Shown: piece after piece, positions 37,591 through 61,975 of the stretch
How positions within the stretch are numbered: position 1 is the first letter of the stretch
Layout: the number at the start of each line of letters is the position of its first letter
Assembly (NCBI RefSeq): GCF_017357865.1
Contig: NZ_CP060096.1
Coordinates: forward strand, 1,661,001-1,725,000
DNA: 64,000 nucleotides
Source of the DNA: Aceticella autotrophica
GTDB taxonomy: Bacteria > Bacillota > Thermoanaerobacteria > Thermoanaerobacterales > Thermoanaerobacteraceae
Direction: 5' to 3'
The notes under the pieces: generated by a model
The model's input: only the letters and a program-made list of their open reading frames with translations
Databases searched by the model: none
Told to the model about the DNA's origin: nothing
Translations under genes and position numbers: made by a program

Positions 37591-37602
37591 CATAAAAAAT
37601 CT

Positions 37603-37688
37603 ATGGCTCCCTACGATAGTACTAACTATATCAGGTTTTATGGGTTAAGAGCCTGAGCCCTTTCTCAGCCTTTCGGCACCCCAGCCTC
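37603..37688 (-). promoter_or_regulatory. TPP riboswitch (THI element)
   Basis: The minus strand reads GGGGTGCC, GGCTGAGA, then ACCTGATATAGTTAGTACTA and CGTAGGGA, which are the conserved THI-box blocks in correct order. It controls thiSGHEF and possibly the radical SAM gene at the end. Confidence 0.95.
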
Positions 37689-37823
37689 AATATTCAATTT
37701 TTTAAATGCTGTAGCTTAACATATGGTAAAAACTTTCATCGACCTTTGCCTTTATAATATTATATTACTTCTTCCATTAGAAATCAACATAAATTCTTTA
37801 TTTTGAATTACGTTTGGTTATAC

Positions 37824-41330: not shown

Positions 41331-41356
41331 TGCACCTTTCTTGAGGTGCTTTTTTA
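41331..41356 (+). terminator. intrinsic terminator of the Moco riboswitch
   Basis: GCACCT-ttcttg-AGGTGC is followed by TTTTTTATTT, between the aptamer and modA. It is a classic expression platform for transcription attenuation. Confidence 0.88.
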
Positions 41357-41471: not shown

Positions 41472-42296
41472 ATGAAAAAAATTAAAATTAAATGGATATT
41501 TTTATTGGCATGCGGATTATTGACTTTATTATTTTTTGGAGGGTGTGGACAGGAAAAGACAAATACACCTGCCGATAAAACGAAAAATGCAAATACAAAA
41601 AGCATCATGATATTTGCAGGAGCTGGACTTAAAGATGCCTTGCCAGAGGTGTCAAAAAAATACAGCCAAATTCATCCCGATGTAAAATTTTCCTTCAATT
41701 TCGCTGGTCTTGGTACCTTACAACAGCAGATTGAACAGGGAGCATATTGTGATATACTTATAGGTCCCGGAGAAAAACAGTGGAATACATTACGAAGTGA
41801 AAATTTGATTGATAAAGCAACAGAAAAAAAGATTTTATCTGATAAACTGGTTCTTATTACACCAAAAGACAGCCAGAAAGTAAAAAGTTTTGAAGACCTT
41901 ACTTCACCTGAAGTTAATAAAATTGCCATGGGAGATCCTGCTGTTGTACCTGGCGGTGAATGGGCTAAAAAAGCTCTGACAAGCTTAGGACTTTGGGATA
42001 AAGTAAAATCTAAACTTATTTTTGCAAAGGATATACAAGAAATCAGAGCTTATGTAGAAACAGGAAATGTGGATGCCGGATTTATATGGAAATCAAATAC
42101 TACAAATGATAATAAGATTAGGATTGCTGCAGAAGCACCTGAAAATTCCTGCCCTCCTGTTTTCTTCAGAGGAGCAGTTATAAATAACAGCAAGGAAAAA
42201 GAAACAGCTCTTGATTTTCTAAACTATCTCAAAGGTCAGGAGGCATCAAAAATTTTCAAAAAATATGGATTTATACCTTTAGAACAAAAACAATAA
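41472..42296 (+). CDS. modA: molybdate-binding lipoprotein ModA
   Basis: ModA captures molybdate or tungstate outside the cell. The lipoprotein signal ends LLFFGGC near residue 25. The family pattern follows: IMIFAGAGLKDALPEVSKKY, FNFAGLGTLQQQIEQGAYCDILIGPGEKQ, LVLITPKDS, KIAMGDPAVVPGGEWAKKAL and AYVETGNVDAGFIWKSN. The 274-residue length fits. It is the first gene after the riboswitch-terminator and leads modA-modB-DUF364-modC. Confidence 0.93.
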   Translation: MKKIKIKWIFLLACGLLTLLFFGGCGQEKTNTPADKTKNANTKSIMIFAGAGLKDALPEVSKKYSQIHPDVKFSFNFAGLGTLQQQIEQGAYCDILIGPGEKQWNTLRSENLIDKATEKKILSDKLVLITPKDSQKVKSFEDLTSPEVNKIAMGDPAVVPGGEWAKKALTSLGLWDKVKSKLIFAKDIQEIRAYVETGNVDAGFIWKSNTTNDNKIRIAAEAPENSCPPVFFRGAVINNSKEKETALDFLNYLKGQEASKIFKKYGFIPLEQKQ

Positions 42297-42323: not shown

Positions 42324-43004
42324 ATGATATATCCTATATTCTTATCAATAAAAGTATCAATAATAGCAACAGTTATTAACTTTATAATAGCAATATCTCT
42401 TGCACGTTTTTTTTTAATAAAAAATTTTTCAGGAAAAGAAATCTTGGAAACCTTTTTTTGTTTGCCATTGGTTTTGCCCCCAACGGTTACGGGTTTTATC
42501 CTTCTTGTACTCATAGGAAGAAATGGACCAATAGGTTTTCTCATTAAGAAAATATTTAACGGTCAACTGCTGTTTACGTGGTGGGCTGCTGTAATTGCAT
42601 CTTCTATAGTCGCCTTTCCGCTCATGTATAAGAGTGCAAAAGCGGCTTTTGAAAGCGTAGATATAAAACAGGAGCGGGCTGCACGTATTTTAGGCGCAAA
42701 TGAGTTTAGGGTTCTTTGTACTGTTACGATGCCTCTTGCCTGGCCTGGTATTCTATCGGGTATAGTTCTTTCATTTGCACGAGCTATTGGTGAGTTTGGA
42801 GCAACATTGATGATTGCAGGTAATATCCCAGGCAAGACTCAGACAATGCCAATAGCAATTTATTTTGCAGCAGAGGGGGGAGATTACAAAACAGCCGGAT
42901 ATTTTGTTATTGTAATTCTTTTATTATCTTTTGGTTTAATATATTATATAAACTGGATCTCAAAAAAGAAAATTTTACATTATACAGAAAAAGAAAGAAA
43001 ATAA
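42324..43004 (+). CDS. modB: molybdate ABC transporter permease ModB
   Basis: The permease has about five membrane helices and 226 residues. Family motifs are LPLVLPPTVTGFILLVLIG, and the EAA loop with RAARILGANEFRVLCTVTMPLAWPGILSGIVLSFARAIGEFGATLMIAGNIPGKTQTMPIAIYF split across helices. GGAG precedes the ATG. It works with ModA upstream and the ATPase two genes downstream. Confidence 0.95.
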   Translation: MIYPIFLSIKVSIIATVINFIIAISLARFFLIKNFSGKEILETFFCLPLVLPPTVTGFILLVLIGRNGPIGFLIKKIFNGQLLFTWWAAVIASSIVAFPLMYKSAKAAFESVDIKQERAARILGANEFRVLCTVTMPLAWPGILSGIVLSFARAIGEFGATLMIAGNIPGKTQTMPIAIYFAAEGGDYKTAGYFVIVILLLSFGLIYYINWISKKKILHYTEKERK

Positions 43005-43035: not shown

Positions 43036-43764
43036 ATGGATTTTTATAATGACTTAAAGTCTAAGTTAAAGGAAATTGTTGATGAAAATAGGTTATTGAA
43101 TGAAAATGTTGAGATTAAAGCCTGCCTGCTTTCTCCGAAAGATGCTATTGGTGCTACAAAACGTAAAGATTATGTTATTTTAAAGGGTAAAGAAAAACTT
43201 ATGCAGGCAGAATTTAAAGGTTCTTATGGACAGGCATTTACTGATTCATTAAATGATTTTCATGGTTCTATTGAAAAGATACTGGAACTTCCACTTAAAA
43301 ACAACTTTGAAAGAGCTATTTTTATTTCGTCCTTAAATGCAATTATGCGGTATCTGGGTTTAGCTGATCACACAGTACACTGTAAAAACAACGATTTAGA
43401 AAACTGCGCTCAGAAAATAGTCCCTTTCATTATTGAAAAATACGGACAACCGCGTATATGCTTTGTGGGGCTACAACCAGCGTTAGTAGAAGCCTGTGCC
43501 TCCAAATTTCCTGTTAAGGTGCTTGACCTGGATAAAGATAACATAGGTAAAGAAAAAAGCGGTGTTTTGATACTGGATGGAGAGAAAGATTATAAGGATG
43601 CAATAGAATGGTGCGATATAGCATTGGTAACAGGGAGTGTTGTTGTTAATGGAACGATTGAGAATATTTTAAAGGTCCGAAAACCCTTGATCTTTTTTGG
43701 GACAACGGCTGCCGGGGCTGCTAAGTTAATGGGATGGGAAAGATTTTGCCCTTGTTCTTATTGA
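43036..43764 (+). CDS. DUF4213/DUF364 putative metal-chelation protein
   Basis: The 242-residue protein has an N-terminal enolase-N-like part (GSYGQAFTDSLNDFHGSIEKIL, residues ~58-80) and a C-terminal Rossmann-like DUF364 part (PRICFVGLQPALVEACASKF, then ALVTGSVVVNGTIENILKV and IFFGTTAAGAAKLMGWERFCPCSY). A structure from Desulfitobacterium led others to propose heavy-metal chelation. Its place between modB and modC suggests a role in molybdate/tungstate handling, or in the chelate pathway encoded further down. It has its own GGAG site. No signal peptide is present, so it is cytosolic. Confidence 0.88.
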   Translation: MDFYNDLKSKLKEIVDENRLLNENVEIKACLLSPKDAIGATKRKDYVILKGKEKLMQAEFKGSYGQAFTDSLNDFHGSIEKILELPLKNNFERAIFISSLNAIMRYLGLADHTVHCKNNDLENCAQKIVPFIIEKYGQPRICFVGLQPALVEACASKFPVKVLDLDKDNIGKEKSGVLILDGEKDYKDAIEWCDIALVTGSVVVNGTIENILKVRKPLIFFGTTAAGAAKLMGWERFCPCSY

Positions 43765-43803: not shown

Positions 43804-44469
43804 ATGCTTAAAGTAAAATTTGTAAAAAGGCTTCCTGATTTTGTTCTTAAAGTTGACTTATTGGTTGATAAAGAAATTTTGGTACTTGTTGGACCTTCAG
43901 GATCTGGTAAAACAACTGTTTTAGAATGTATTGCAGGTTTTCAAAAGCCAGATTGGGGAGAGATAATATTAGGGGAGAAAACCCTTTTTTCCTCATCAAA
44001 ACGAATCAATCTTCCTTCATACAAACGGGGTATCGGATATATATTTCAGGAATATGCGCTTTTTAACCATTTAACAGTAAGAGATAATATCTTATATGGG
44101 GTAAAAAATATATTAAAAGATGAAAAAGAAAAACAACTTAATGAAATACTTAAAAAATTTGATATATTTCATTTAGCTGAAAGATATCCAGTTCAGCTTT
44201 CGGGCGGAGAAAAACAGCGGGTAGCCCTGGCAAGAACCCTTATAACAAAGCCTCATTTGTTATTGCTGGATGAGCCCCTTTCAGCTATGGACAGGAAACT
44301 AAGGGAAAGGCTATGCAAGGAAATAAAGGAACTTCATGGGCAGTGGAAGATACCCTTTGTTTTGGTTACACACTACCAATATGAAGCAAAGCTTGGCGAT
44401 AAGGTTTTTAAGGCTGAAAAAGGTGAAGACAAAGGAGAAATAATAATGAAGTTCCATCAAAGTGCTTGA
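43804..44469 (+). CDS. modC: ABC transporter ATPase ModC-like, lacking the C-terminal Mop domain
   Basis: Walker A is GPSGSGKTTVLE, the Q-loop is YIFQEYALFNHLTVRDN, the signature is LSGGEKQRVALAR, and Walker B is LLLLDEPLSAMD. At 221 residues it lacks the C-terminal TOBE/Mop molybdate-sensing domain of full ModC (~350 residues), so feedback by bound molybdate is not expected; the riboswitch may replace it. It should energise ModB. The last codon overlaps the start of the FecCD-type permease (TGATG), tying the two transporters into one operon. Confidence 0.9.
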   Translation: MLKVKFVKRLPDFVLKVDLLVDKEILVLVGPSGSGKTTVLECIAGFQKPDWGEIILGEKTLFSSSKRINLPSYKRGIGYIFQEYALFNHLTVRDNILYGVKNILKDEKEKQLNEILKKFDIFHLAERYPVQLSGGEKQRVALARTLITKPHLLLLDEPLSAMDRKLRERLCKEIKELHGQWKIPFVLVTHYQYEAKLGDKVFKAEKGEDKGEIIMKFHQSA

Positions 44470-45578
44470 TGGGCAATGCAGTTGATTATTGTCAGTATTG
44501 CTATGGGGACAAAGGTTTAGAAAGTAACATTCTATGGAAAGGATTGGTTGAAGTGGCATTTTACAGAAAAATAAAAATTTCAGTCATGGGTATTTTGGCT
44601 ATATTGCTCATAATTGCAATCTTTGTATCTCTAACACTGGGACGATACGCCATTCCGCTGGCACAGATCATCACCATATTAATGTCCAAACTCTTGGATC
44701 TTCCCGTAACATGCTCTAAAACAATGGAAATGGTTTTGTTCAATGTGCGTATCCCAAGAATCTTTGCAGCTATACTTGTAGGAGGTGCTTTATCAGTTTC
44801 TGGAGCAACATATCAAGGACTTTTTAAAAATCCAATGGTATCCCCAGATATCCTTGGGGCTTCTGCTGGAGCTGGCTTTGGTGCTGCTATAGCAATTTTA
44901 ATCTCCCTTGGTTCAATTGGTATTCAAATTTCCGCTTTTCTGTTTGGTTTGGGAGCAGTTGTCATCTCATATACCATGTCAACTATAATCAGCCGCAACA
45001 ATAATGCTATTTTGGTATTGGTATTGACAGGAATGGTTGTATCTACGATGTTTTCTTCCTTTACTTCTATGGTTAAATATGTAGCTGACCCTGAGAGCAA
45101 ACTGCCTGCCATTACCTTTTGGCTTATGGGAGGGCTTTCTTCCATAAGTAAAAATGACATAGCTGTATTGCTCATACCGATAGTTATTGGTTTAGTCCCT
45201 CTTATCCTGCTTCGATGGAGATTGAATGTCATTTCCTTTGGCGATGAGGAAGCACAAGCAATGGGTATTGATACAAAAAAAATGCGTTTGCTTTTCATCA
45301 TTTCATCAACATTAATGACATCAGCAGCGGTTTCGGTCAGTGGTATGGTGGGCTGGATCGGACTAATTATTCCACATATTGCCAGACTCATCGTGGGACC
45401 TAATTATAAAGCAATGTTACCTGCTTCATTTCTTATTGGCAGTACCTTCCTGCTTTTTGTAGATGACATAGCTCGAAATACCTTTACTGTTGAAATCCCT
45501 TTAGGAATATTGACTTCTCTCATAGGAGCACCATTTTTCTTCTATCTGCTGGCAAAAGGAAGGAAGGGTTGGGTATGA
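44469..45578 (+). CDS. FecCD/BtuC-type ABC permease
   Basis: This is a ten-helix importer permease of the chelate/cobalamin family: GRYAIPLAQI, RIPRIFAAILVGGALSVSGATYQGLFKNPM, SPDILGASAGAGFGAAI, FGDEEAQAMGID (the coupling helix) and GLIIPHIARLIVG. MolB of Haemophilus is a molybdate importer of this same type, so molybdate, tungstate or a metal chelate are all possible cargos. I used ATG 44469 because it overlaps the modC stop; a GTG at 44553 is an alternative. The extra N-terminal piece holds a short CQYCYG motif of unknown meaning. Confidence 0.88.
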   Translation: MGNAVDYCQYCYGDKGLESNILWKGLVEVAFYRKIKISVMGILAILLIIAIFVSLTLGRYAIPLAQIITILMSKLLDLPVTCSKTMEMVLFNVRIPRIFAAILVGGALSVSGATYQGLFKNPMVSPDILGASAGAGFGAAIAILISLGSIGIQISAFLFGLGAVVISYTMSTIISRNNNAILVLVLTGMVVSTMFSSFTSMVKYVADPESKLPAITFWLMGGLSSISKNDIAVLLIPIVIGLVPLILLRWRLNVISFGDEEAQAMGIDTKKMRLLFIISSTLMTSAAVSVSGMVGWIGLIIPHIARLIVGPNYKAMLPASFLIGSTFLLFVDDIARNTFTVEIPLGILTSLIGAPFFFYLLAKGRKGWV

Positions 45579-46357
45579 AATTGGAAATTAAAAATGTATC
45601 CTGTGGATATGGAACAAAAATTGTTCTTAAAGACTTTTCAATACAGGTAAGTTCAGGTGAAATTCTGTGCCTATTAGGACCAAATGGAGTAGGAAAAACA
45701 ACCTTATTCAAAACTATTCTGGGATTTTTAAAATTGCATAGTGGTGAAATTCAACTAAACGGAGAAGATATAAAATATTGGTCCAGAAAAAAACTGGCAA
45801 AAACCATCGGATATGTACCTCAAGCTCATACACCACCTTTCCCATTTTCTGTACTTGATGTAGTAGTTATGGGACGTACTGCTCATTTAGGGGTTTTTTC
45901 TTCACCGTCTAAAGAGGATTTAACCATTGCAGGGAAAGCCTTGGAAATTTTAGGGGTTTCTTTTCTAAAAGACAGAATTTATACTGAAATCAGCGGTGGT
46001 GAACGGCAAATGGTGCTTATTGCCAGGGCTTTAACGCAGCAGCCCGATATTCTTGTAATGGACGAGCCTACCGCTAATTTAGACTTTGGAAATCAAGTAC
46101 GTGTACTTGAACAAATTAAGAAACTTGCTAAAAAGGGAATGGGGGTGATAATGACTACTCATTTTCCAGATCACGCATTTTTATGCAGTACAAAAGTAGC
46201 CTTGATGCAACGAAACAACGTGTTTACCTTAGGATATGCAGATGATGTAATTACAGAAGAGAATTTGAGGATAGCTTATGGAGTAAATGTAAAAATAACC
46301 TGCTTAAAGGGTGTAGACGGAGAAATTATTAAAGCCTGTGTGCCTTTGCTTAGTTAA
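45575..46357 (+). CDS. FecE/BtuD-type ABC transporter ATPase
   Basis: Walker A is GPNGVGKTTLFK, the Q-loop region is TIGYVPQAHTPPFPFSVLDVVVMGRTAHLG, the signature is ISGGERQMVLIARAL, and Walker B is ILVMDEPTANLDFG. At 260 residues it is the usual size for siderophore/cobalamin importers. ATG 45575 overlaps the permease stop (ATGA) and has GGAAGG upstream. It pairs with the FecCD-type permease and the lipoprotein that follows. Confidence 0.93.
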   Translation: MKLEIKNVSCGYGTKIVLKDFSIQVSSGEILCLLGPNGVGKTTLFKTILGFLKLHSGEIQLNGEDIKYWSRKKLAKTIGYVPQAHTPPFPFSVLDVVVMGRTAHLGVFSSPSKEDLTIAGKALEILGVSFLKDRIYTEISGGERQMVLIARALTQQPDILVMDEPTANLDFGNQVRVLEQIKKLAKKGMGVIMTTHFPDHAFLCSTKVALMQRNNVFTLGYADDVITEENLRIAYGVNVKITCLKGVDGEIIKACVPLLS

Positions 46358-46390: not shown

Positions 46391-47509
46391 ATGTGTAAAA
46401 AAAGAAAAAACTTTATTTTATCAATATTTATCATTATATGTATAATCTTAGCCGCAGTGTTTACCGGCTGCGGTAGTCAAAAAACATCAAAAAGCAATGA
46501 ACAAGGGAATCAAGGTACAAGAACAATAGTAGATATGGCTGGTAGAACAGTAACAGTACCTTCCCATATTAAAAAAGTTTGTTCAACCAATCCTATAGGA
46601 ACCGTATTTATGTATACATTGTCGCCGGATAAAATTGCAGGTTTAAATAACAAAATCTCAAAAGCTGAAAGTAAGTTCACAATAAATTCTTATAAAAACC
46701 TTCCTGTTGAAGGTGGTTATTTTGGGCAGGGTCAAACAATGAATAAGGAAGAACTATTAAAAATAAAACCTGATATAATACTTAATATGGGTCCTATAAA
46801 TAGTTCGTCAATTTCTAATGCAGATAAAATACAGAATGATTTAGGTATACCTGTTGTATGCGTAACAAGTGATTTGGATAAAATGGACAATGCTTACAAA
46901 TTTATGGGTAATTTGACAGGAAACACCAGTAAAGCTAAAGAACTTGGGGATTATTGTAAAAAAACGTATGCTGAAATTACAGATATAGCCAAAAAAATAC
47001 CTGAAGATAAAAAGGTTAAAGTATATTATGCAGAAGGGAAAGAAGGTCTACAGACAGACCCGAAAGGTTCCATACACTCAGAATTAATTGACCTCGTAGG
47101 AGCAATAAATGTAGCCCAAGTGCCAATACAAGCAGGTTATGGTCGTAGCGGGGTATCTATGGAACAGCTTCTCAAATGGAATCCTGAAGCAATTTTGGTA
47201 TGTATTGACCAAGGGTTTGCAGCTCCAGCAAATGATCCTTACAAAGTAATAATGTCTAATCCGAATTGGAGTAATTTAAAGGCAGTAAAAGATAAAAAGG
47301 TATATGTTATTCCTTGTGAACCATTTAATTGGTTCGATAGACCCCCATCAGTAATGAGGATTTTAGGAGCAAAATGGCTGGGAAATTTATTGTATCCAAA
47401 CTACTTTAAATATGATATAAAGGCAGAAGTTAAAGAATTCTATGATAAATTTTTGCATATAAAAATTACTGACCAACAATATGAGGAAATTATGTCTAAT
47501 GTAAAATAG
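46391..47509 (+). CDS. chelate/oxyanion-binding ABC transporter lipoprotein (FecB/MolA type)
   Basis: The lipoprotein signal ends VFTGC at residue 27. The first lobe includes RTIVDMAGRTVTVPSHIKKV and NKEELLKIKPDIILNMGP. A backbone helix follows (TGNTSKAKELGDYCKKTY), then the second lobe (KVKVYYAEGKEGLQTDP, GAINVAQ, SMEQLLKWNPEAILVC, WLGNLLYPNYF). This is the COG0614 fold used by ferric-siderophore, cobalamin and MolA-type molybdate binders. The second lobe is clearly related to residues ~400-572 of the radical SAM protein two genes downstream. A terminator follows. Confidence 0.92.
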   Translation: MCKKRKNFILSIFIIICIILAAVFTGCGSQKTSKSNEQGNQGTRTIVDMAGRTVTVPSHIKKVCSTNPIGTVFMYTLSPDKIAGLNNKISKAESKFTINSYKNLPVEGGYFGQGQTMNKEELLKIKPDIILNMGPINSSSISNADKIQNDLGIPVVCVTSDLDKMDNAYKFMGNLTGNTSKAKELGDYCKKTYAEITDIAKKIPEDKKVKVYYAEGKEGLQTDPKGSIHSELIDLVGAINVAQVPIQAGYGRSGVSMEQLLKWNPEAILVCIDQGFAAPANDPYKVIMSNPNWSNLKAVKDKKVYVIPCEPFNWFDRPPSVMRILGAKWLGNLLYPNYFKYDIKAEVKEFYDKFLHIKITDQQYEEIMSNVK

Positions 47510-47616: not shown

Positions 47617-48249
47617 GTGGAAATAAATGTAAAAGAATTTGATGAAATTGCTCGTAATATCTTTGCTCCTGTTTATCCTGTTATTGCAAAACAAATAAAA
47701 TGCAGAACAGGTATAACAACAGGTACATGTTTGGATATTGGAAGCGGTGGAGGATATCTTGGGATCGAATTATCTAAAATTACAGATTTGTCGGTAATTT
47801 TACTTGATAAATCAGAAGAAATGCTAAAGATTGCTGGTGATAATATCATAAAGAATGCCTTAGAAACTAAAGTTAGGACTCAACTCGGAGATGTCCACAA
47901 TATACCTTTTGAAGATCAGACTATTAATCTTGTAATAAGCAGAGGGTCAATATTTTTTTGGCATGACCTTCCAAAAGCCTTTAAAGAAATTTACAGGATA
48001 CTTACACCAGATGGAATGGCATATATCGGCGGTGGATTTGGCACGGCAAAATTAAAAGAACAGGTAGCAACAAATATGAAAAAAAGAAATAAAGAGTGGA
48101 AGGGAGGAATGATTCAGACTTTTGGCAATAACCCGGTAGAAATGCTCGATAATCAATTAAATCACGCGGGAATTAAGAATTATAAGGTTATTATGGATGA
48201 ATCAGGATTATGGTTGATTATGAAAGGATGTAATAACAGTGAAATGTAA
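47617..48249 (+). CDS. class I SAM-dependent methyltransferase
   Basis: The 210-residue protein has the motif I glycine loop in TCLDIGSGGGYLGIEL, the acidic post-I residue in VILLDKSEEMLKIA, GDVHNIPFEDQTINLVISRGSIFF as motif post-II, and IYRILTPDGMAYIGGGFG. The core resembles UbiE-type methyltransferases; the acceptor is unknown. The start is GTG 47617 behind AAGGGGTGG. Its 3' end overlaps the radical SAM gene by 11 bases, so the pair probably acts on one substrate, plausibly the molecule imported by the FecBCD-type system just upstream. Confidence 0.88.
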   Translation: MEINVKEFDEIARNIFAPVYPVIAKQIKCRTGITTGTCLDIGSGGGYLGIELSKITDLSVILLDKSEEMLKIAGDNIIKNALETKVRTQLGDVHNIPFEDQTINLVISRGSIFFWHDLPKAFKEIYRILTPDGMAYIGGGFGTAKLKEQVATNMKKRNKEWKGGMIQTFGNNPVEMLDNQLNHAGIKNYKVIMDESGLWLIMKGCNNSEM

Positions 48250-50023
48250 AATTTGCGAAAGAGGCTGTAAAATTCCTGAAAATGGAACAGGTGCATGTGG
48301 TTTATATGAAAATAACGGACAAGGTATTGTAGAAAGATTTCCGAATAAGTATCTTATTACCTGCCCAATATCAATAGAAACAATGCCTATGTTGCATTTT
48401 TATATGGGACAGAAATTTTTACAGGTGAGTACTGTAGGATGTAATTTCCATTGTCCGGGATGTATTTCTACAGTAATTGTAAAAGAAATGAATCATGAAA
48501 GCAAAGCACTTAAAGAGTTATCTCCGGTGGAAATAGTAAATGAAGCCATAAAAAATAATTGTATTGGTATTGCTTTTTTAATGAATGACCCTATTGCATC
48601 TTTTTACACATTTGTAAAGATAGCAGAAGCTGCAAAAGAAAGGAACTTGCTTGTAGGCTGTTCTTCTAATACGTACTTTACTGAAGATGCATTAAACAAA
48701 ATTATTAAATACTTAGATTTTATTAATATAGGCATAAAAGGGATGTCTGATGATATTTACCGTAAATGCGGTGGAAGTACGGTTAACCCTGTTATAAGAA
48801 ATATGAAAATATTGCATAATAATGGGGTATGTATTGAGGTATCCTGTGTATACACAAACAATAATGAGAAGGAAATAATAGAACTTGCAAAAAAGATAAA
48901 GCAAATATCCAAAGATATACCATTACAAATTATGCGTTTTATCCCACTGGAAGAAGCTGATTGCTCTTTAGAACCTTCAATTAAATCTTCAGAAGAACTT
49001 GTAAAAGAATTAAAGCAGTATGTTAATTATGTGTATCTTTTTAATTCACCTGGAACTGATTTCTTAAACACATATTGTCCTGTATGTGGGGAACTTATTT
49101 ATAAAAGGGATTTTTATGGTCCCATGGGTGCAAAATTAAAACCTATGGAAGGTTCAAACTTAGTAGAAAAAGAAATTTGTCCAAGGTGTTCATTTAAATT
49201 AAGTTATAAAGGCTCTTTAAAAAATGTTAAATATCAAGAAGCTGATTTTGAAGGAGGATACCCCTTTACCAGAGCATTGGAAATCATTGAGTCTATATTA
49301 ATTACTATTGGTGTTAGTGAAAAAAATAAAATAGTTAAGGTTTGGGAATATGTACTTTGCAATAAAAAATTAAAAGATCTCCATTTGAATATACAAAATT
49401 TAAATAATTATATTAATACCATAAAAATTTTTGGTAAAATACTTGGCTATAACAATGAAGCAGAAAATTTAGCACGTTATTTGGAAGAAAAAATTTCCAT
49501 AATTCAAAACGGACTTTCTAATGTAAAAAATAAACCCAGGGTGTATTATGCTATGGGCAAACCGCTTTTTTGCATTAAAGGCGGAAGAATGGAGAATCAA
49601 TTAGTAGAAGCAGCAGGAGGAATTAGTGTAAATAAAGAACTTGACTGCGGCGGAAGACCCGGAATGAGAATTACAGCAAAACAATTAAATAAATTAAATC
49701 CGGATATCATTTTTATCTCTGCATTTATATCAAATTCAGTTGAAGATTTTTATGATGAGTGTATTAAAGATGGAATAAATACAGAGGCAGTAAAAAATAA
49801 GAGAATATATACACATATAGCGCCAGGATTTGACTTTGGAAGTCCAAGATGGATATTAGGACTCATGTATATAGCCAATAATCTGCATCCTGATATATTT
49901 AATTTTAATGTTATAAAAGAAGCAGAACAATTCTATCAAAAATTTTATAATATGGATTTTACTCTATCAAATCTAAACCGCTCTTTTGCGAAACCAGACA
50001 ACAAATGGAAACTAAAAGCATAA
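48239..50023 (+). CDS. radical SAM protein fused to a substrate-binding-protein lobe
   Basis: Residues 1-30 carry a PflA-like Cys set (C3, C6, C10, C20, with GTGACGLYENN). The radical SAM motif CNFHCPGC follows at 68-75, then GIAFLMNDPIASF and a barrel to ~265. Two further Cys pairs, CPVC (280-283) and CPRC (314-317), look like a zinc or iron site. From ~400 the protein aligns with the C-terminal half of the FecB-type lipoprotein upstream: backbone helix, then KPRVYYAMGKPLF, ITAKQLNKLNPDIIFIS, LGLMYIANNLHPDIF, FYQKFY. There is no signal peptide, so this lobe works in the cytosol. It may hold the imported ligand for the radical SAM centre. Start GTG 48239. Function unknown. Confidence 0.87.
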   Translation: MKCKICERGCKIPENGTGACGLYENNGQGIVERFPNKYLITCPISIETMPMLHFYMGQKFLQVSTVGCNFHCPGCISTVIVKEMNHESKALKELSPVEIVNEAIKNNCIGIAFLMNDPIASFYTFVKIAEAAKERNLLVGCSSNTYFTEDALNKIIKYLDFINIGIKGMSDDIYRKCGGSTVNPVIRNMKILHNNGVCIEVSCVYTNNNEKEIIELAKKIKQISKDIPLQIMRFIPLEEADCSLEPSIKSSEELVKELKQYVNYVYLFNSPGTDFLNTYCPVCGELIYKRDFYGPMGAKLKPMEGSNLVEKEICPRCSFKLSYKGSLKNVKYQEADFEGGYPFTRALEIIESILITIGVSEKNKIVKVWEYVLCNKKLKDLHLNIQNLNNYINTIKIFGKILGYNNEAENLARYLEEKISIIQNGLSNVKNKPRVYYAMGKPLFCIKGGRMENQLVEAAGGISVNKELDCGGRPGMRITAKQLNKLNPDIIFISAFISNSVEDFYDECIKDGINTEAVKNKRIYTHIAPGFDFGSPRWILGLMYIANNLHPDIFNFNVIKEAEQFYQKFYNMDFTLSNLNRSFAKPDNKWKLKA

Positions 50024-50100: not shown

Positions 50101-51315
50101 TTAATTAAATATAAATCTTCCTTCAAGCATTTCCCCCTTTTTTACAATATTCTTTTCTTCCGGCATTATTATAATCCCATTGGCTCTTGTCATTGTTTTT
50201 AATTGACTTGAACTTTGACTACCCGCATTGTAAGCATAATATTTATCTGATTTTTTTTCTATTTTAACATATATATATTTTCTTCTTTCTGTTTTTGCTT
50301 TAATATCCTCTCCTAAAACAATAGAAATTTTTTTTGGAAGAACATCTACCTCTCCCTTCATTTTCTTCAGTGCTGGTTTTACAAATTCTTCAAATGTTGT
50401 TATAATTGATGCAGGATTTCCAGGTAAACCAAAAAATAATTTATCTTCATAAGTAGCAAAAGTTATAGGCTTACCTGGTTTAATTGAAACAGATGTAAAA
50501 TGTATTTTAAATCCTATTTTATTTAAAATTTCATCAATAAAATCATAATCTCCTACTGAAACACCACCAGAACTTATTAATACGTCAACCTCAGCCAAGG
50601 CTTCTTTTATTTTCTGAATTATTACCTCTTTATCATCAGGAATAATTCCAAATGATAATACAGATTTGATTCCGATACTTTCTAATAAGGCTTTCAAGGA
50701 ATATTCATTACTGTTTCTTATTTTACCGGGTTGTAATTTTTTATCTATATTTATTAATTCATTTCCTGTTATTATTAAAGCTACCTTCGGCAAATTATAT
50801 ACAGGTATATATTCTTGACCTAAAGAAGCCAAAAAACCTATTTCTGGCGGTCGAATAATTTTACCCTTAGGTAAAGCTAATTCTCCGAAGGAAACCTCCT
50901 CTCCCTTATTAATAATATTATTGTTGCTTTTAACCGGTCTATTTATTATGATTTTCTTATCTTTAATATCTACCTTCTCTATTTCTATAACTGCGTCTGC
51001 ACCTAAAGGAATAGGTGCTCCAGTCATAACTTTGTATGTTTGACCTGTTTCTATTTCCTTTTTAAAATCATCACCAGCTTTAATACTTCCCCTGACAGTT
51101 AATTCAATTGGATTTTCTTTAGAAGCATTCAAGGTATCAGAACTTTTTAATGCATAACCATCCATTGCCGATTTATCAAAAGGAGGTAAATAATCATAAG
51201 CATAAATATCTTCTGCCAAAACCCTTCCTAAAGAAGATAACAAATCTATTCTTTCAATACCTAAAACATTTGTTGAGATTAAGATGGTTTTTAGTGCTGA
51301 TTCAATGCTCAACAT
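50101..51315 (-). CDS. moeA: molybdopterin molybdenumtransferase MoeA
   Basis: MoeA inserts molybdate into adenylylated molybdopterin. The 404-residue protein shows LPPFDKSAMDGYALK, MTGAPIPLGADAVI, PPEIGFLASLG, ISSGGVSVGDYDF, VSIKPGKPITFA and FFGLPGNPASI, all conserved family blocks. ATG 51315 overlaps the fdhF stop (TAATG), so it was translated in step with fdhF. The IS element inside fdhF lies upstream and should be polar on this gene unless the element supplies a promoter. Confidence 0.95.
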   Translation of the reverse strand: MLSIESALKTILISTNVLGIERIDLLSSLGRVLAEDIYAYDYLPPFDKSAMDGYALKSSDTLNASKENPIELTVRGSIKAGDDFKKEIETGQTYKVMTGAPIPLGADAVIEIEKVDIKDKKIIINRPVKSNNNIINKGEEVSFGELALPKGKIIRPPEIGFLASLGQEYIPVYNLPKVALIITGNELINIDKKLQPGKIRNSNEYSLKALLESIGIKSVLSFGIIPDDKEVIIQKIKEALAEVDVLISSGGVSVGDYDFIDEILNKIGFKIHFTSVSIKPGKPITFATYEDKLFFGLPGNPASIITTFEEFVKPALKKMKGEVDVLPKKISIVLGEDIKAKTERRKYIYVKIEKKSDKYYAYNAGSQSSSQLKTMTRANGIIIMPEEKNIVKKGEMLEGRFIFN

Positions 51316-52834
51316 TATTCTTTCACCTTAATCAACATCTGTTTTTTAATTCTTTCATATTCATCTTTTATATATTGTTCTGCCCATATCTGATCATCAA
51401 TTTTTTCTACCTTGACTGCACAATATTTATATTCAGGGGTTTTTGATATAGGGTCAAGATTATCCAATGTTAATTCATTTGCAGCACCAATCCACCACTG
51501 ATAAGTCATATATGTTGCACCTTTTTGCACTCTATCAGTAACTAAAGCCCTTGCTATTACTGAACCTCGACGAGAACTTATCCTAACTAATTCCTGATCC
51601 TTTATCCCTAATTCTTTTGCATCTTCTATATTTATTTGCAGATACCCTGGTTCATCAGCTAATTTCTGTAAAGGACGGCAGTTGCCTGTCATCGTTCTTA
51701 CCGAATAGTGTCCAACTTCTCTCACGGTAGACAAACTTAAAGGATATTCGTCATCGGGCAATTCAACAGGTGGTCGCCATTCAGCAGCAAACAACAAACC
51801 TTTGCCATTTGGTCTTGCAAATTTGTTTCCTTTATACAAATATGGTGTACCTGGATGATCCTCGCTCGGACAAGGCCATTGAATACTACCTAATTCTTTA
51901 ATACGCTTATAACTTGCACCAGCAAAATTAGGACACAAACTTCTCATTTCATCCCATATTTCCTCGGTATTTTTATAACTCATGGGGTATCCCATAGCAG
52001 TGGCAATTTCGCAGATAATCTGCCAGTCCGGCTTTACATCACCTTTAGGTTCAACTGCTTTACGCATTAGTTGAAAGCCACGATCAGCACAAGTGTAAAC
52101 TCCATCATGTTCACCCCAAGCAGTCGCAGGCAAAATTACATCAGCATGCAAAGCAGTTTTATTCATAAAAATATCTTGGACAACAACAAATTCCATTTTG
52201 TCTAACGTTTCTCTTACTTCAGCAGCATTGGGATCACTTTGAACTGGATCTTCTCCAAAAATATAATAAGCTTTAATTTTATCTTCATGTAATACTAAAT
52301 GAGGCACTTCTGTCAGCATATAACCGGGTTTAGAAGAAAGTTTTACTCCCCATGCTTTTTCAAACTTTGCTTGAATTTCAGGATTATTTACTGGCTGATA
52401 TCCGGGATACAAATTGGGCAAAGCTCCCATATCGCAAGCTCCCTGTACATTGTTTTGACCACGAACAGGACCAATTCCTACATTTGGTCTTCCATAATTG
52501 CCTGTTAAAAGTCCTAATCCTGCTAATCCCTTAACAACATCAACTGCCTGACCGAATTGACAAACACCCATTCCATAAAGAATATACGAATCCTTCGCTT
52601 CTGCATACATTCTTATGGCTTTGCGAATTGTATCTGCAGGAATTCCAGTAATAGACTCGGCATATTCAGGTGTATATCTATCAACAATTGCTTTATATTC
52701 TTCAAAACCTTCTACATATTTGTCAACATATTCTTTATTATAAAGACCCTCATTGATCAATACATTACCAAATGAATTTACTAAAACCATATTTGTTCCG
52801 CCTTTAATTGGCAGCCATAGATCAGCTATTCTAG

Positions 52835-54744
52835 GAGTCCACTCGGAAAGAGCTTATCTACAGGTTAAAAATTTTTATCATCACAAAAATTATCAGAATA
52901 ATCTCTATTTAACTAAATATATATGACTTTGTTATTGATTTTAATATGTATGTTCTGCTTTATTGATCTGTTATTGCTATTTTTAATCTCATTAACCATT
53001 CTTTAAGCCGTTTTTGGGCAGACTTCTCCCTTCTTAATTTGTCTATTACAAATTTTAGAAATATGTTTCATTATTACTTTGATATTATTGTTTATTGCTA
53101 CCATTATCATTTGCCATCTTATTTTTAATTTCCCTCTATACCTTCCTTTACGTCCGCCATGCCTGGTAAGTTCTGATATGTTTCTTTCTACATTCGGTCT
53201 TTTTGCATAGTCTTCTTTAAATTCATCTGTTTTTTGATATTCTCTTTGTTCTTGTATCTCTTTTTCATATGGATGTATATTTATTGTTCTCCCTTTTTTT
53301 GATTTTGTACATTGGTCTTTTAGCGGACAATCATTACATTCTTCTGCTCTAAATTTTACTGTAACTTGCTCATGTTTTTGCGTTTTTTCAGTATCAAATT
53401 GTTTTATGTGTCCGTTGGGACATTCTACTGTTCCTTTTTCTAAATCAATTTTGAATTCTTCTTTTGAAAATCCTCCACTTGGATTTGTTGCTTCCGGTAC
53501 TCTAATGCAAAAATCTGTTCCTTCTTCTTTCCTTTTTTCTATTTCTTCAAAGTCACTATATGCACAATCTCCATACAGTTTATCTATATCAACGCCGTTT
53601 CTTCGGCTTTGTTCTATAAGATCACTCATATGTTCACCATCTGCTATATTTGCTCCATCGACTTCTATTCCTACTACTACTGAGCCTTTTTCTCCTCCTG
53701 TTATAATTTCAGCTTTGTATCCATCTGATAATTTCGATGAGGTCTTTCTCCCATGGCGCATTTCGTCATCTACTACTGATATTATTCTGTCTTTCGCTGT
53801 TCCTTCTATCATTTTTACATGCCCATCGTTTGTTATTTCAACATCTTGTAATGCTACTCTTTCTAATAATTCAATTGCTTTTTTTAAATCATCTTTTATA
53901 TCTTTTTTTGTTTTTATATTTTCTACGAGTGATAGTGCATCTTTAACAAGTTCTTCGAGTAATTTTGCTTTTTCTTTTTCATTTTCCCATGCTATTTTGG
54001 GTTTTTTGATATTTTCTTCATAATCTGTTCTTTTCAGTATTTTTTTTGATGCATCTTCCATTTCGTAAAACTTCATGAAACGGAGAACCATCTTTATCCC
54101 TTGGTATATCATAGTGTAAGTATCTTGTCTGGCACAAGAGCCCCAAATCATGAATGAATCTATTATATGTAAGTTGTCTTTATTAAACAGTCCTACTTCT
54201 TTTGCCTGACTAATTGTTTTAATAAATATTTCTTTTCCTATTTCACTGTTAAACAGTCTTTTTCTATGATCACATAATGTTACTGCATCTATTCCATCAA
54301 AATCCCGTGGTGCGGTTAATGCATATTTAATTCTATCATCGAATCGTGATTCTTCTTCCATTTCACGATCAGAATATCCTTTTTCAAATTGTATCAGCAT
54401 CGCTGTAAATGTATATACTGGGGATATGGATTCTCTGCCATAGTATGAGAAAAGTGGCTGAAACATTTCTTCATTAAGATTATTAAATACCCATGTTCTT
54501 AGTCTATGATAATAACTTACTTCAGAAATTTTCCCAAGTAACCAATAATCTGAAAATGACATTTGTCTATCTGCTTTTCCTATCATTTTTATCACCACAT
54601 TTTTTTTTATATTATTTATATTATACCATAAAAAATACCTCTTAAGTGCTTATTTCGTGTGTGTTTAGGAGTATTTTTTTTGTAAATTATATGGCTTTCA
54701 ATAACATATTTGTTAATTTATGATTGATGATTCCGAGTGGACTC
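52835..54744 (-). mobile_element. IS1182-like insertion sequence inside fdhF
   Basis: The 1910-bp element is bounded by perfect 14-bp terminal inverted repeats (GAGTCCACTCGGAA at 52835-52848 and its complement at 54731-54744). A direct CTAG duplication flanks it at 52831-52834 and 54745-54748. It carries one transposase gene. The intact repeats and target duplication, and the undamaged fdhF halves, indicate a recent insertion. Confidence 0.95.
53003..54586 (-). CDS. IS1182-family DDE transposase
   Basis: The 527-residue transposase has an N-terminal DUF772-like domain (YTFTAMLIQFEKGYSDREMEEESRFD). The DDE core follows: first Asp in LHIIDSFMIWGS, second in DKLYGDCAYSDFEEI, Glu in RPNVERNISELTRHGGRKGRYRG. 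A Cys-rich insert (CNDCPLKDQC) is usual in IS1182 members. I chose ATG 54586 (MIGKADRQMSF) with GGTGAT before it; a GTG four codons upstream is possible. The frame is complete, so the element should be active. Confidence 0.93.
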   Translation of the reverse strand: MIGKADRQMSFSDYWLLGKISEVSYYHRLRTWVFNNLNEEMFQPLFSYYGRESISPVYTFTAMLIQFEKGYSDREMEEESRFDDRIKYALTAPRDFDGIDAVTLCDHRKRLFNSEIGKEIFIKTISQAKEVGLFNKDNLHIIDSFMIWGSCARQDTYTMIYQGIKMVLRFMKFYEMEDASKKILKRTDYEENIKKPKIAWENEKEKAKLLEELVKDALSLVENIKTKKDIKDDLKKAIELLERVALQDVEITNDGHVKMIEGTAKDRIISVVDDEMRHGRKTSSKLSDGYKAEIITGGEKGSVVVGIEVDGANIADGEHMSDLIEQSRRNGVDIDKLYGDCAYSDFEEIEKRKEEGTDFCIRVPEATNPSGGFSKEEFKIDLEKGTVECPNGHIKQFDTEKTQKHEQVTVKFRAEECNDCPLKDQCTKSKKGRTINIHPYEKEIQEQREYQKTDEFKEDYAKRPNVERNISELTRHGGRKGRYRGKLKIRWQMIMVAINNNIKVIMKHISKICNRQIKKGEVCPKTA

Positions 54745-54924
54745 CTAGCAGATTCTGTTATCCTTGGATCAACAACAATAATTTTAGCTCCTTTTTCTTT
54801 TGCTTTCACTATTCTCCTTGCTACTATCGGATGAGAATCTGCTCCATTGTATCCAAAAATAAATAATAAATTAGCATCTTCTATCTCATTAATTGAGTTA
54901 GTCATTGCACCATTTCCTAATGTT

Positions 54925-54941
54925 GCGGCTAGACCAGCCAC
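54925..54941 (-). promoter_or_regulatory. candidate SECIS hairpin of fdhF
   Basis: GTGGCT-GGTCT-AGCCGC (54941-54925, one T.G pair) starts 13 bases after the UGA. The loop GGTCT is the same as in the E. coli fdhF SECIS, the best-known bacterial example. Confidence 0.8.
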
Positions 54942-55498
54942 TGATGGAGCATGTCAAACCCGAGCACAGTGATCAATATTATTAGTACCGATTACAGCTC
55001 GCATAAATTTTTGCATTATATAATTTGCCTCATTTCCTGGACCGCGAGCTGATCCAGTACCCATAATAGCATCAGGACCATATTTATTTTTTATTTCTTT
55101 AAGCTTATTAGCAACATAACCAATTGCTTCTTTCCAAGAAACTTCAACTAACTTACCATTCTTTCTAATCATAGGTTTCTTTAAACGGGCAGTTAATAAT
55201 TGTGGGTCATTAAGGTAATCCCAACCATAGCGACCTTTTAAGCATAATGTTCCCTCGTTTGTTCTGCCAAAAGCTCCTTCAGCTCTTATTATTTTACCAT
55301 CTTCAACTACAAGATATAATTGACACCCTGCACCACAGTATGGGCATACAGTTAAAACCTTTTTTTCCATAGCTTTTTCCTCCTTTTTAACATTATAATA
55401 ATTAGATAACCTTTACTCCACAAAACTATTATAACACCAAATATTTATAAATTTCAATTTTAATTTACATGTTATATTAAATAATTATTATAACCCTT

Positions 55499-61799: not shown

Positions 61800-61975
61800 C
61801 TATTTTATATTTGATGGTATCTCAACGTGGAACCATACTAAAATTTTTTTAATTTAATACAGTATTACTCTGCCAGGATCATTTGACCGGGACGGAAGAT
61901 AAAAAGCTTACTTCACCTTCTGATTTCCCGGAAGGTTTTTTAATTATCTTCCTAAATCTAATAAGGGGGCTGATG
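61800..61975 (+). promoter_or_regulatory. structured leader of the pan operon with terminator
   Basis: The 200-base gap before the DUF2520 gene has a small hairpin (ATGGT/ACCAT, 61815-61838), a GC-richer segment (CTGCCAGGATCATTTGACCGGGACGGAAG) and an intrinsic terminator at 61914-61943. No ORF is visible. The layout is that of a riboswitch-like attenuator. The described pan RNA motif of panBCD operons is a candidate, but I could not match its consensus with certainty. Confidence 0.5.
61914..61943 (+). terminator. intrinsic terminator in the pan leader
   Basis: ACCTTC (61916-61921) with GAAGGT (61932-61937) is followed by a T-run and TTAATT, 35 bases before the first pan gene. Confidence 0.75.

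Follow-up and report, generated by a model that had tools for sequence, protein, structure and literature searches.

A cytosolic radical SAM protein with a FecB-type binding lobe in a putative molybdenum/tungsten acquisition operon of Aceticella autotrophica

Results

A nine-gene operon behind a Moco/Tuco riboswitch

The window analysed here is a stretch of 64,000 nucleotides from Aceticella autotrophica (contig NZ_CP060096.1, positions 1,661,001 to 1,725,000); coordinates refer to this window, and features lie on its plus strand unless stated otherwise. Nine co-directional genes, separated by gaps of at most 107 nt, encode in order ModA, ModB, a DUF364 protein, ModC, FecCD, FecE, FecB, a methyltransferase and a fusion protein. 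The ModA-type molybdate/tungstate binding lipoprotein (41472-42296) scored 171.8 bits against TIGR01256 (cut-off 62.5), the ModB-type permease (42324-43004) was assigned from its sequence and its position between ModA and ModC, and the ModC-type ATPase (43804-44469) carries Walker and ABC signature motifs. The DUF364 protein (43036-43764; PF04016, 7.1e-11) has a putative role in heavy-metal chelation. These are followed by a FecCD/BtuC-type permease (44466-45578; PF01032, 7.8e-86), a FecE/BtuD-type ATPase (45569-46357; PF00005, 3.2e-32), for which the best models were corrinoid/heme-type ATPases, and a FecB-type binding lipoprotein (46391-47509; PF01497, 4.4e-21) with the lipobox FTGC, which matched 4pag in the PDB at 1.9e-50 and, as its third match, MolA (3psa) at 2.3e-20. 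A class I SAM-dependent methyltransferase (47617-48249; PF08241, 1.3e-18) overlaps by 11 nt the start of the last gene of the operon (48239-50023), a GTG-initiated reading frame for a 594-residue protein in which a radical SAM domain is joined through a helical linker to a FecB-type lobe.

Beyond the operon, on the minus strand, lies a selenocysteine formate dehydrogenase gene (51315-55370) split by an insertion sequence with a 531-residue transposase (53003-54598), the N- and C-terminal parts of the enzyme flanking the insertion. A SECIS_3 element within this gene (54901-54959) scored 47.5 bits, under the gathering score of its family. The rest of the window holds a TPP riboswitch (37591-37693, minus strand) and a pan motif (61811-61899).

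The operon is preceded, in the same direction, by a Moco/Tuco riboswitch aptamer (RF01055; 41152-41276; 75.2 bits against a gathering score of 36), which places it in the predicted regulon of this riboswitch. The P3 hairpin is deleted from the aptamer in the alignment, and riboswitches lacking P3 have been assigned to the tungsten-cofactor (Tuco) class (Regulski 2008, PMC2408646). A terminator-like hairpin with a T-run (41332-41349), a pattern match from a consensus scan only, lies between the aptamer and ModA and is a possible expression platform.

Copies of RF01055 number three in this genome, and all of them flank either the fusion operon or a paralogous operon with an unfused radical SAM gene. 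This second operon (L031:6668-15500; G000:C1:802.7-811.5 kb) runs from a Moco riboswitch through FecB, FecCD, FecE, the unfused radical SAM protein and a 384-residue protein, here termed D384, to a DUF364 protein. Another riboswitch comes just behind it, followed by the genes of a tungstate-type ABC importer. Were the three riboswitches placed at random, all would fall no more than 10 kb from the two radical SAM genes with a probability of about 5e-6. D384 (L031:10788-11942; relatives in L075-L083) has no match in Pfam, and its family is tied to unfused radical SAM/importer operons. Its predicted model (pLDDT 80) gave a marginal structural match to phosphonoacetate hydrolase (E 1.9e-3), and on this model D384 could possibly belong to the alkaline phosphatase superfamily.

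Domain structure and fold of the fusion protein

The radical SAM domain occupies residues 1-322 of the fusion and a single FecB/COG0614 lobe residues 387-575 (49397-49963). Pfam places Radical_SAM (PF04055) at residues 64-219 (5.8e-16), and the motif CNFHCPGC lies at residues 68-75 (48440-48463), as given in a preliminary description of this sequence. Peripla_BP_2 (PF01497) was matched over residues 389-525 at 3.9e-7 and 30.2 bits, above the gathering cut-off of 27.5. The preliminary description had also aligned the C-terminal part with the FecB-type lipoprotein encoded two genes upstream, and BLASTP bears this out over residues 387-575 (E = 6e-15, 28% identity). Among PDB chains, phmmer matched class III binding proteins over approximately residues 362-581 (4ovk, 7e-17; 4hn9, 5e-10).

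An AlphaFold2 model of the fusion, built with 36 natural homologues, had a mean pLDDT of 90.9 and a pTM of 0.91. Foldseek searches with the lobe of this model returned 4ovk, 4hn9, 4pag and MolA 3psa (E 1e-11 to 1e-8), and those with the radical SAM half returned PFL-activase (5e-8) and NifB, so that the protein has both the CxxxCxxC motif and the fold of the radical SAM superfamily. Pfam, the PDB sequence matches and the model thus agree with the earlier assignment of the lobe to the COG0614 fold. Of the two lobes that characterise COG0614/PF01497 proteins, however, the model predicts the C-lobe alone, the N-lobe being replaced by a conserved helical insert (residues 333-386; 49235-49396) that contains the motif GGYPFTRALE. 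No alpha/beta N-lobe is predicted in residues 340-384; three helices are modelled there instead (340-357, 362-374 and 378-384), and residues G339, G340 and Y341 are invariant in the alignment. A complete two-lobed binding protein concealed in residues 325-400 was ruled out by the same three helices. How barrel and lobe are placed relative to each other is taken from one predicted model.

No signal peptide or lipobox was found in the fusion, in keeping with the preliminary description; over its first 45 residues the hydropathy maximum is 0.41, as against 3.43 for FecB. It is therefore well supported that the lobe is cytosolic and joined to a radical SAM centre.

Conserved cysteines and cleft loops

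Four N-terminal cysteines (C3, C6, C10 and C20; 48245-48298) are conserved throughout the family, at 100% in the fusions, in their unfused sister group and in AmmeMemoRadiSam-type controls, and none of the radical SAM cysteines or core residues varies among 36 fusions. Two CxxC pairs (280-283 and 314-317; 49076-49189) lie where they had been located before. Their description as extra pairs does not hold, since the 29 stand-alone AmmeMemoRadiSam-type proteins in the alignment all have them (100%), and fusion-specific additional Fe-S pairs are thereby ruled out. The eight flanking cysteines (3, 6, 10, 20, 280, 283, 314 and 317) are thus common to ordinary AmmeMemoRadiSam enzymes, and the full cysteine pattern of that family is present at 100% in the 36 fusions and 29 controls, with the exception of C314 (97% of the fusions). 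Features peculiar to the fusions are C177 and C508, invariant among them, and the GGYPFTRALE segment, while C141 is present only in the fusions and in the D384-associated type.

Within the fused lobe the cleft loops have a mean entropy of 0.56, as against 1.08 elsewhere, whereas in the neighbouring lipoproteins these loops vary more than the remainder (1.28 against 0.98). The conserved face of the fused lobe comprises residues 440-455, 472-476, 494-500 and 529-538. These loops were picked from strand ends of the model by analogy with class III binding proteins, and not from a contact map. On that analogy, the putative ligand-facing loops would be the most conserved part of the lobe, which lends indirect support to the reception or presentation of a ligand.

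Distribution of the family and origin of the lobe

An alignment-based scan of genome contigs showed that the fusion belongs to a conserved family; about 35 independent loci were counted, spread over Bacillota, Desulfobacterota-type bacteria and Methanosarcinaceae. Full-length homologues, 37-88% identical, occur in a genome of the same family as A. autotrophica, in Clostridium thailandense, Desulfosporosinus, Desulfotruncus, Pelotomaculum, Syntrophomonas, Desulfobacter and Desulfocarbo, in Geobacter MAGs, and in Methanolobus/Methanosarcinaceae; none was found on plasmids. Because full-length copies recur in so many genomes, an assembly artefact can be dismissed.

The best NCBIfam match of the fusion was TIGR04337 (AmmeMemoRadiSam; 124.1 bits, E 5.6e-36), under the 220-bit cut-off of that model. 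Phylogenetic analysis of the radical SAM domain unites the fusions, along with one truncated and one contig-cut copy, in one clade, the sister clade of which consists of the unfused radical SAM proteins paired with D384, and a 100/100 branch separates both from stand-alone AmmeMemoRadiSam (AmrS) proteins. From sequence comparison the fusion is thus clearly a relative of AmmeMemoRadiSam, and neither by score nor by tree a member. The genome of A. autotrophica itself encodes a single fusion, alongside one D384-type operon and a single ordinary AmmeMemoRadiSam gene.

The lobe had been described as borrowed from the binding protein of the neighbouring importer, a view which the phylogeny contradicts. 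In the lobe tree every fused lobe falls in a single clade (100/100), which a long branch separates from the whole sample of 44 lipoproteins, and the best match of the lobe in its own genome is FecB of the paralogous operon (65.7 bits, as against 51 for the neighbouring lipoprotein). Since the fused lobes stand together and away from the lipoproteins, the lobe was evidently acquired once and long ago; judged by these sequences it is an old branch of single origin and not a copy of its present neighbour. A recent fusion involving the adjacent lipoprotein gene is ruled out by this tree. We found no description of a radical SAM/FecB-lobe architecture in the open-licence literature with the limited search terms used.

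Genes that accompany the fusion

Neighbouring genes were tallied over 35 fusion loci, some of them cut by contig ends, 10 D384-type loci and 18 control loci. The methyltransferase was present in 31/35 fusion loci, within 300 nt in 26 of them, and in 0/10 D384-type and 0/18 control loci. FecB was found in 30/35 fusion loci, FecCD in 25/35 and FecE in 23/35, a DUF364/DUF4213 protein in 14/35, and a Mo/W gene (ModA, ModB, MoeA, FDH or FmdE) likewise in 14/35; several fusion loci have no Mo/W marker inside the contig. None of the 18 control loci contained FecB, FecCD, DUF364/DUF4213 or Mo/W genes. The fusion gene thus travels with an importer and a methyltransferase, indirect support for the view that the lobe receives or presents the imported ligand.

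A cluster resembling TonB-dependent receptors comprises ten genes in seven Gram-negative fusion loci, one member being confirmed by Pfam, and ExbB/ExbD are encoded at some Gram-negative loci. Together these point to a ligand whose size or scarcity would rule out entry through porins, and the receptors suggest that it is chelated. Gene clustering returned no recurrent exporter, peptide synthetase or ligase among the fusion neighbours, and no recurrent glycyl-radical enzyme family.

Several less frequent neighbours were also recorded. SBP_bac_6 proteins without an evident signal peptide occur in four fusion loci; those at L033:1952-2824, L048:4804-6024 and L058:13201-14175, one of them with a DUF1858 domain, adjoin HypB/CobW-like GTPases and may be cytosolic. 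Four fusion loci (including L037:8896-9756, L064:4014-5024 and L032:4406-5458) encode a further radical SAM protein, most similar to HmdB/BioB. In genome G051 (L032/L033), probably a Syntrophomonas, which has 14 Moco/Tuco riboswitches, several FecB-type lipoprotein genes lie within about 25 kb around the fusion, six of them in the two stretches examined. In Desulfosporosinus fructosivorans (L038:6193-9899), nitrogenase-like D, K and H genes separate the methyltransferase gene from that of the fusion; for D and K the scores were well under the nifD/nifK cut-offs.

Riboswitches and cofactor genes at related loci

RF01055 was also seen at other fusion loci. It immediately precedes DUF4213-FecCD-FecE-FecB-methyltransferase-fusion operons at two of them (L111 and L112), FecCD at L046/L047 and FecB-fusion at L049. 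The unfused D384-type operons of L031, L102-L105 and L107 likewise have it directly upstream; it was absent from seven control loci of ordinary AmmeMemoRadiSam genes. P3-lacking riboswitches were seen in the window and in L054, and P3-bearing, Moco-type riboswitches precede the fusion operons of L111 and L112 and are also near the L046/L049 fusions. A role limited to tungsten is ruled out by the latter.

The same-family relative (G009) encodes a fusion 88% identical to that of the window in an operon ordered ModB remnant-DUF364-ModC-FecCD-FecE-FecB-methyltransferase-fusion. Immediately before it, in the same direction, lie nitrogenase component 1 genes and NifV. MoaC, MoeA and RF01055 are all absent from this genome, in which only one molybdopterin-domain match, of 167 residues, was found. 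The genome of A. autotrophica presents the reverse, with MoaC, three MoeA genes and the riboswitch but no nitrogenase. As the operon of G009 is maintained behind nif genes without MoaC, MoeA or the riboswitch, the link is with the metal (Mo/W) and not with the pterin. A CRISPR array with CRISPR-DR2 repeats (L034:17324-19496) lies downstream of the G009 fusion.

Discussion

That this system transports Mo/W we infer from its context of riboswitch, ModABC, MoeA and nif genes, and the link between importer and metal is very probable. This evidence (Moco/Tuco riboswitch, ModABC, MoeA and nitrogenase) is new beyond the preliminary description, in which the lobe was read as receiving the imported ligand or presenting it to the radical SAM centre. 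That reading is the best explanation found, the cleft loops being conserved and the gene travelling with its importer; the identity of the ligand, its binding by the lobe, the reaction and its direction, breakdown or synthesis, are what we infer. An action of the fusion on the imported ligand is in itself somewhat favoured, and we give about even chances to the fuller proposal that it is a cytosolic processing enzyme of a Mo/W acquisition operon, the lobe of which holds the imported ligand while it is altered together with the methyltransferase. In such a scheme, low levels of Tuco, or of Moco in the relatives, would cause the riboswitch to permit reading of the operon, and the FecB-FecCD-FecE importer, with a TonB-dependent receptor in Gram-negatives, would take up a Mo/W species that is probably complexed by an organic ligand. 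In the cytosol this ligand would rest in the FecB-type lobe, positioned over the radical SAM site, with the surrounding domain as a substitute for the missing N-lobe, and the fusion and the co-encoded methyltransferase would alter the ligand such that the metal is freed for assembly of Tuco/Moco or, in the nitrogen fixer, FeMo-co. We weakly prefer dismantling of the ligand to its construction, because no exporter or ligase recurs among the neighbours.

The opposite direction, in which fusion and methyltransferase would build a Mo/W-binding metallophore with the lobe holding the growing chelator, is unlikely but the most serious of the competing explanations. A role in making or altering a pterin/flavin-like chelator has been proposed for DUF364 (PMC2954201), proteins of this type accompany the fusion at the 14 loci counted above, and the TonB-dependent receptors fit an organic carrier; the lack of recurrent exporter, peptide synthetase and ligase families speaks against synthesis, however, and an import-type binding lobe suits the capture of the form that is imported. 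We consider rather improbable a role like that of PFL-activase, in which the lobe would serve for protein docking or as a scaffold and the radical SAM domain would switch on another enzyme, for instance the adjacent methyltransferase. PFL-activase is structurally close to the radical SAM half, and the methyltransferase is a near-obligate partner, but glycyl-radical enzymes do not recur nearby, and the cleft loops are more conserved than the outer helices of the lobe, the pattern of a small-molecule pocket.

Slightly less credible still is a cytosolic receptor or metallochaperone that merely senses or carries Mo/W, with the radical SAM site as a redox switch. Cytosolic FecB-type domains do act as sensors in the regulator Btr, and the SBP_bac_6 proteins mentioned above would be in keeping with such a role; the fusion, however, has no DNA-binding domain, and all 36 sequences retain the same radical SAM cysteines and core residues. 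Riboswitches often control importers of their own ligand, and this, along with nearby MoeA genes and Moco riboswitches, would favour the import of a pterin for salvage, be it Moco, molybdopterin or a product of its breakdown. Salvage is nevertheless the least likely rival and highly improbable, weakened as it is by the retention of MoaC in 14/15 host genomes and by G009, where the operon is kept without MoaC/MoeA and with nitrogenase.

To return to a processing enzyme for an imported ligand, a broader and more doubtful conjecture is that anaerobic bacteria and methanogens use a dedicated organic carrier for Mo/W. This carrier would enter through FecBCD (and TonB), and a radical SAM/methyltransferase pair would open it in the cytosol, the pair's own half of a binding protein presenting the metal complex. 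To our knowledge, Mo/W acquisition by anaerobes in sulfidic, metal-poor settings is known for free oxyanions only. If the conjecture is true, Mo/W would also be traded as complexes among syntrophs, sulfate reducers and methanogens, the formate and CO2 enzymes of which depend on these metals, and a radical-chemistry counterpart of siderophore release would exist for them. It also gives a testable use for a branch beside the AmmeMemoRadiSam enzymes, which are widespread and without known reaction, and the design, in which half a binding protein would become the substrate-holding part of an enzyme, is unusual.

Comparison with known systems

The fusion shares with AmmeMemoRadiSam proteins (TIGR04337, amrS) the four-cysteine N-terminal motif, CxxxCxxC and two C-terminal CxxC pairs, but differs in its score below the cut-off, its separate 100/100 clade, its lobe and its place beside importer genes, seen in 0/18 controls. 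No assigned reaction for AmmeMemoRadiSam was found in the open-licence literature. With the FecB/BtuF-type COG0614 class III proteins, including MolA (3psa), it has in common the C-lobe fold of residues 387-575; unlike them, it has a single lobe that is cytosolic, fused to an enzyme and in a clade of its own.

The importer resembles MolBCA of Haemophilus influenzae, a type II, FecBCD-like Mo/W importer of low affinity for molybdate/tungstate oxyanions (PMC4031551). In contrast to MolBCA, the system described here also has a riboswitch, a DUF364 protein, a methyltransferase and a radical SAM enzyme, joined in Gram-negatives by TonB receptors. ChuW/HutW, which serve anaerobic heme degradation, offer a parallel in outline, in that import of the FecBCD type is followed by opening of a metal ligand through a radical SAM enzyme; these enzymes are HemN-like, methylate heme itself and have no binding lobe, and homology is not claimed. 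The action proposed for the fusion after import likewise resembles siderophore release. Finally, in the regulator Btr (YbbB) a cytosolic FecB-type domain is fused to an AraC-type DNA-binding domain. Btr, named in NCBIfam NF049932, is thus a precedent for a cytosolic FecB-type domain, although its partner there is a DNA-binding domain and in the fusion an enzyme.
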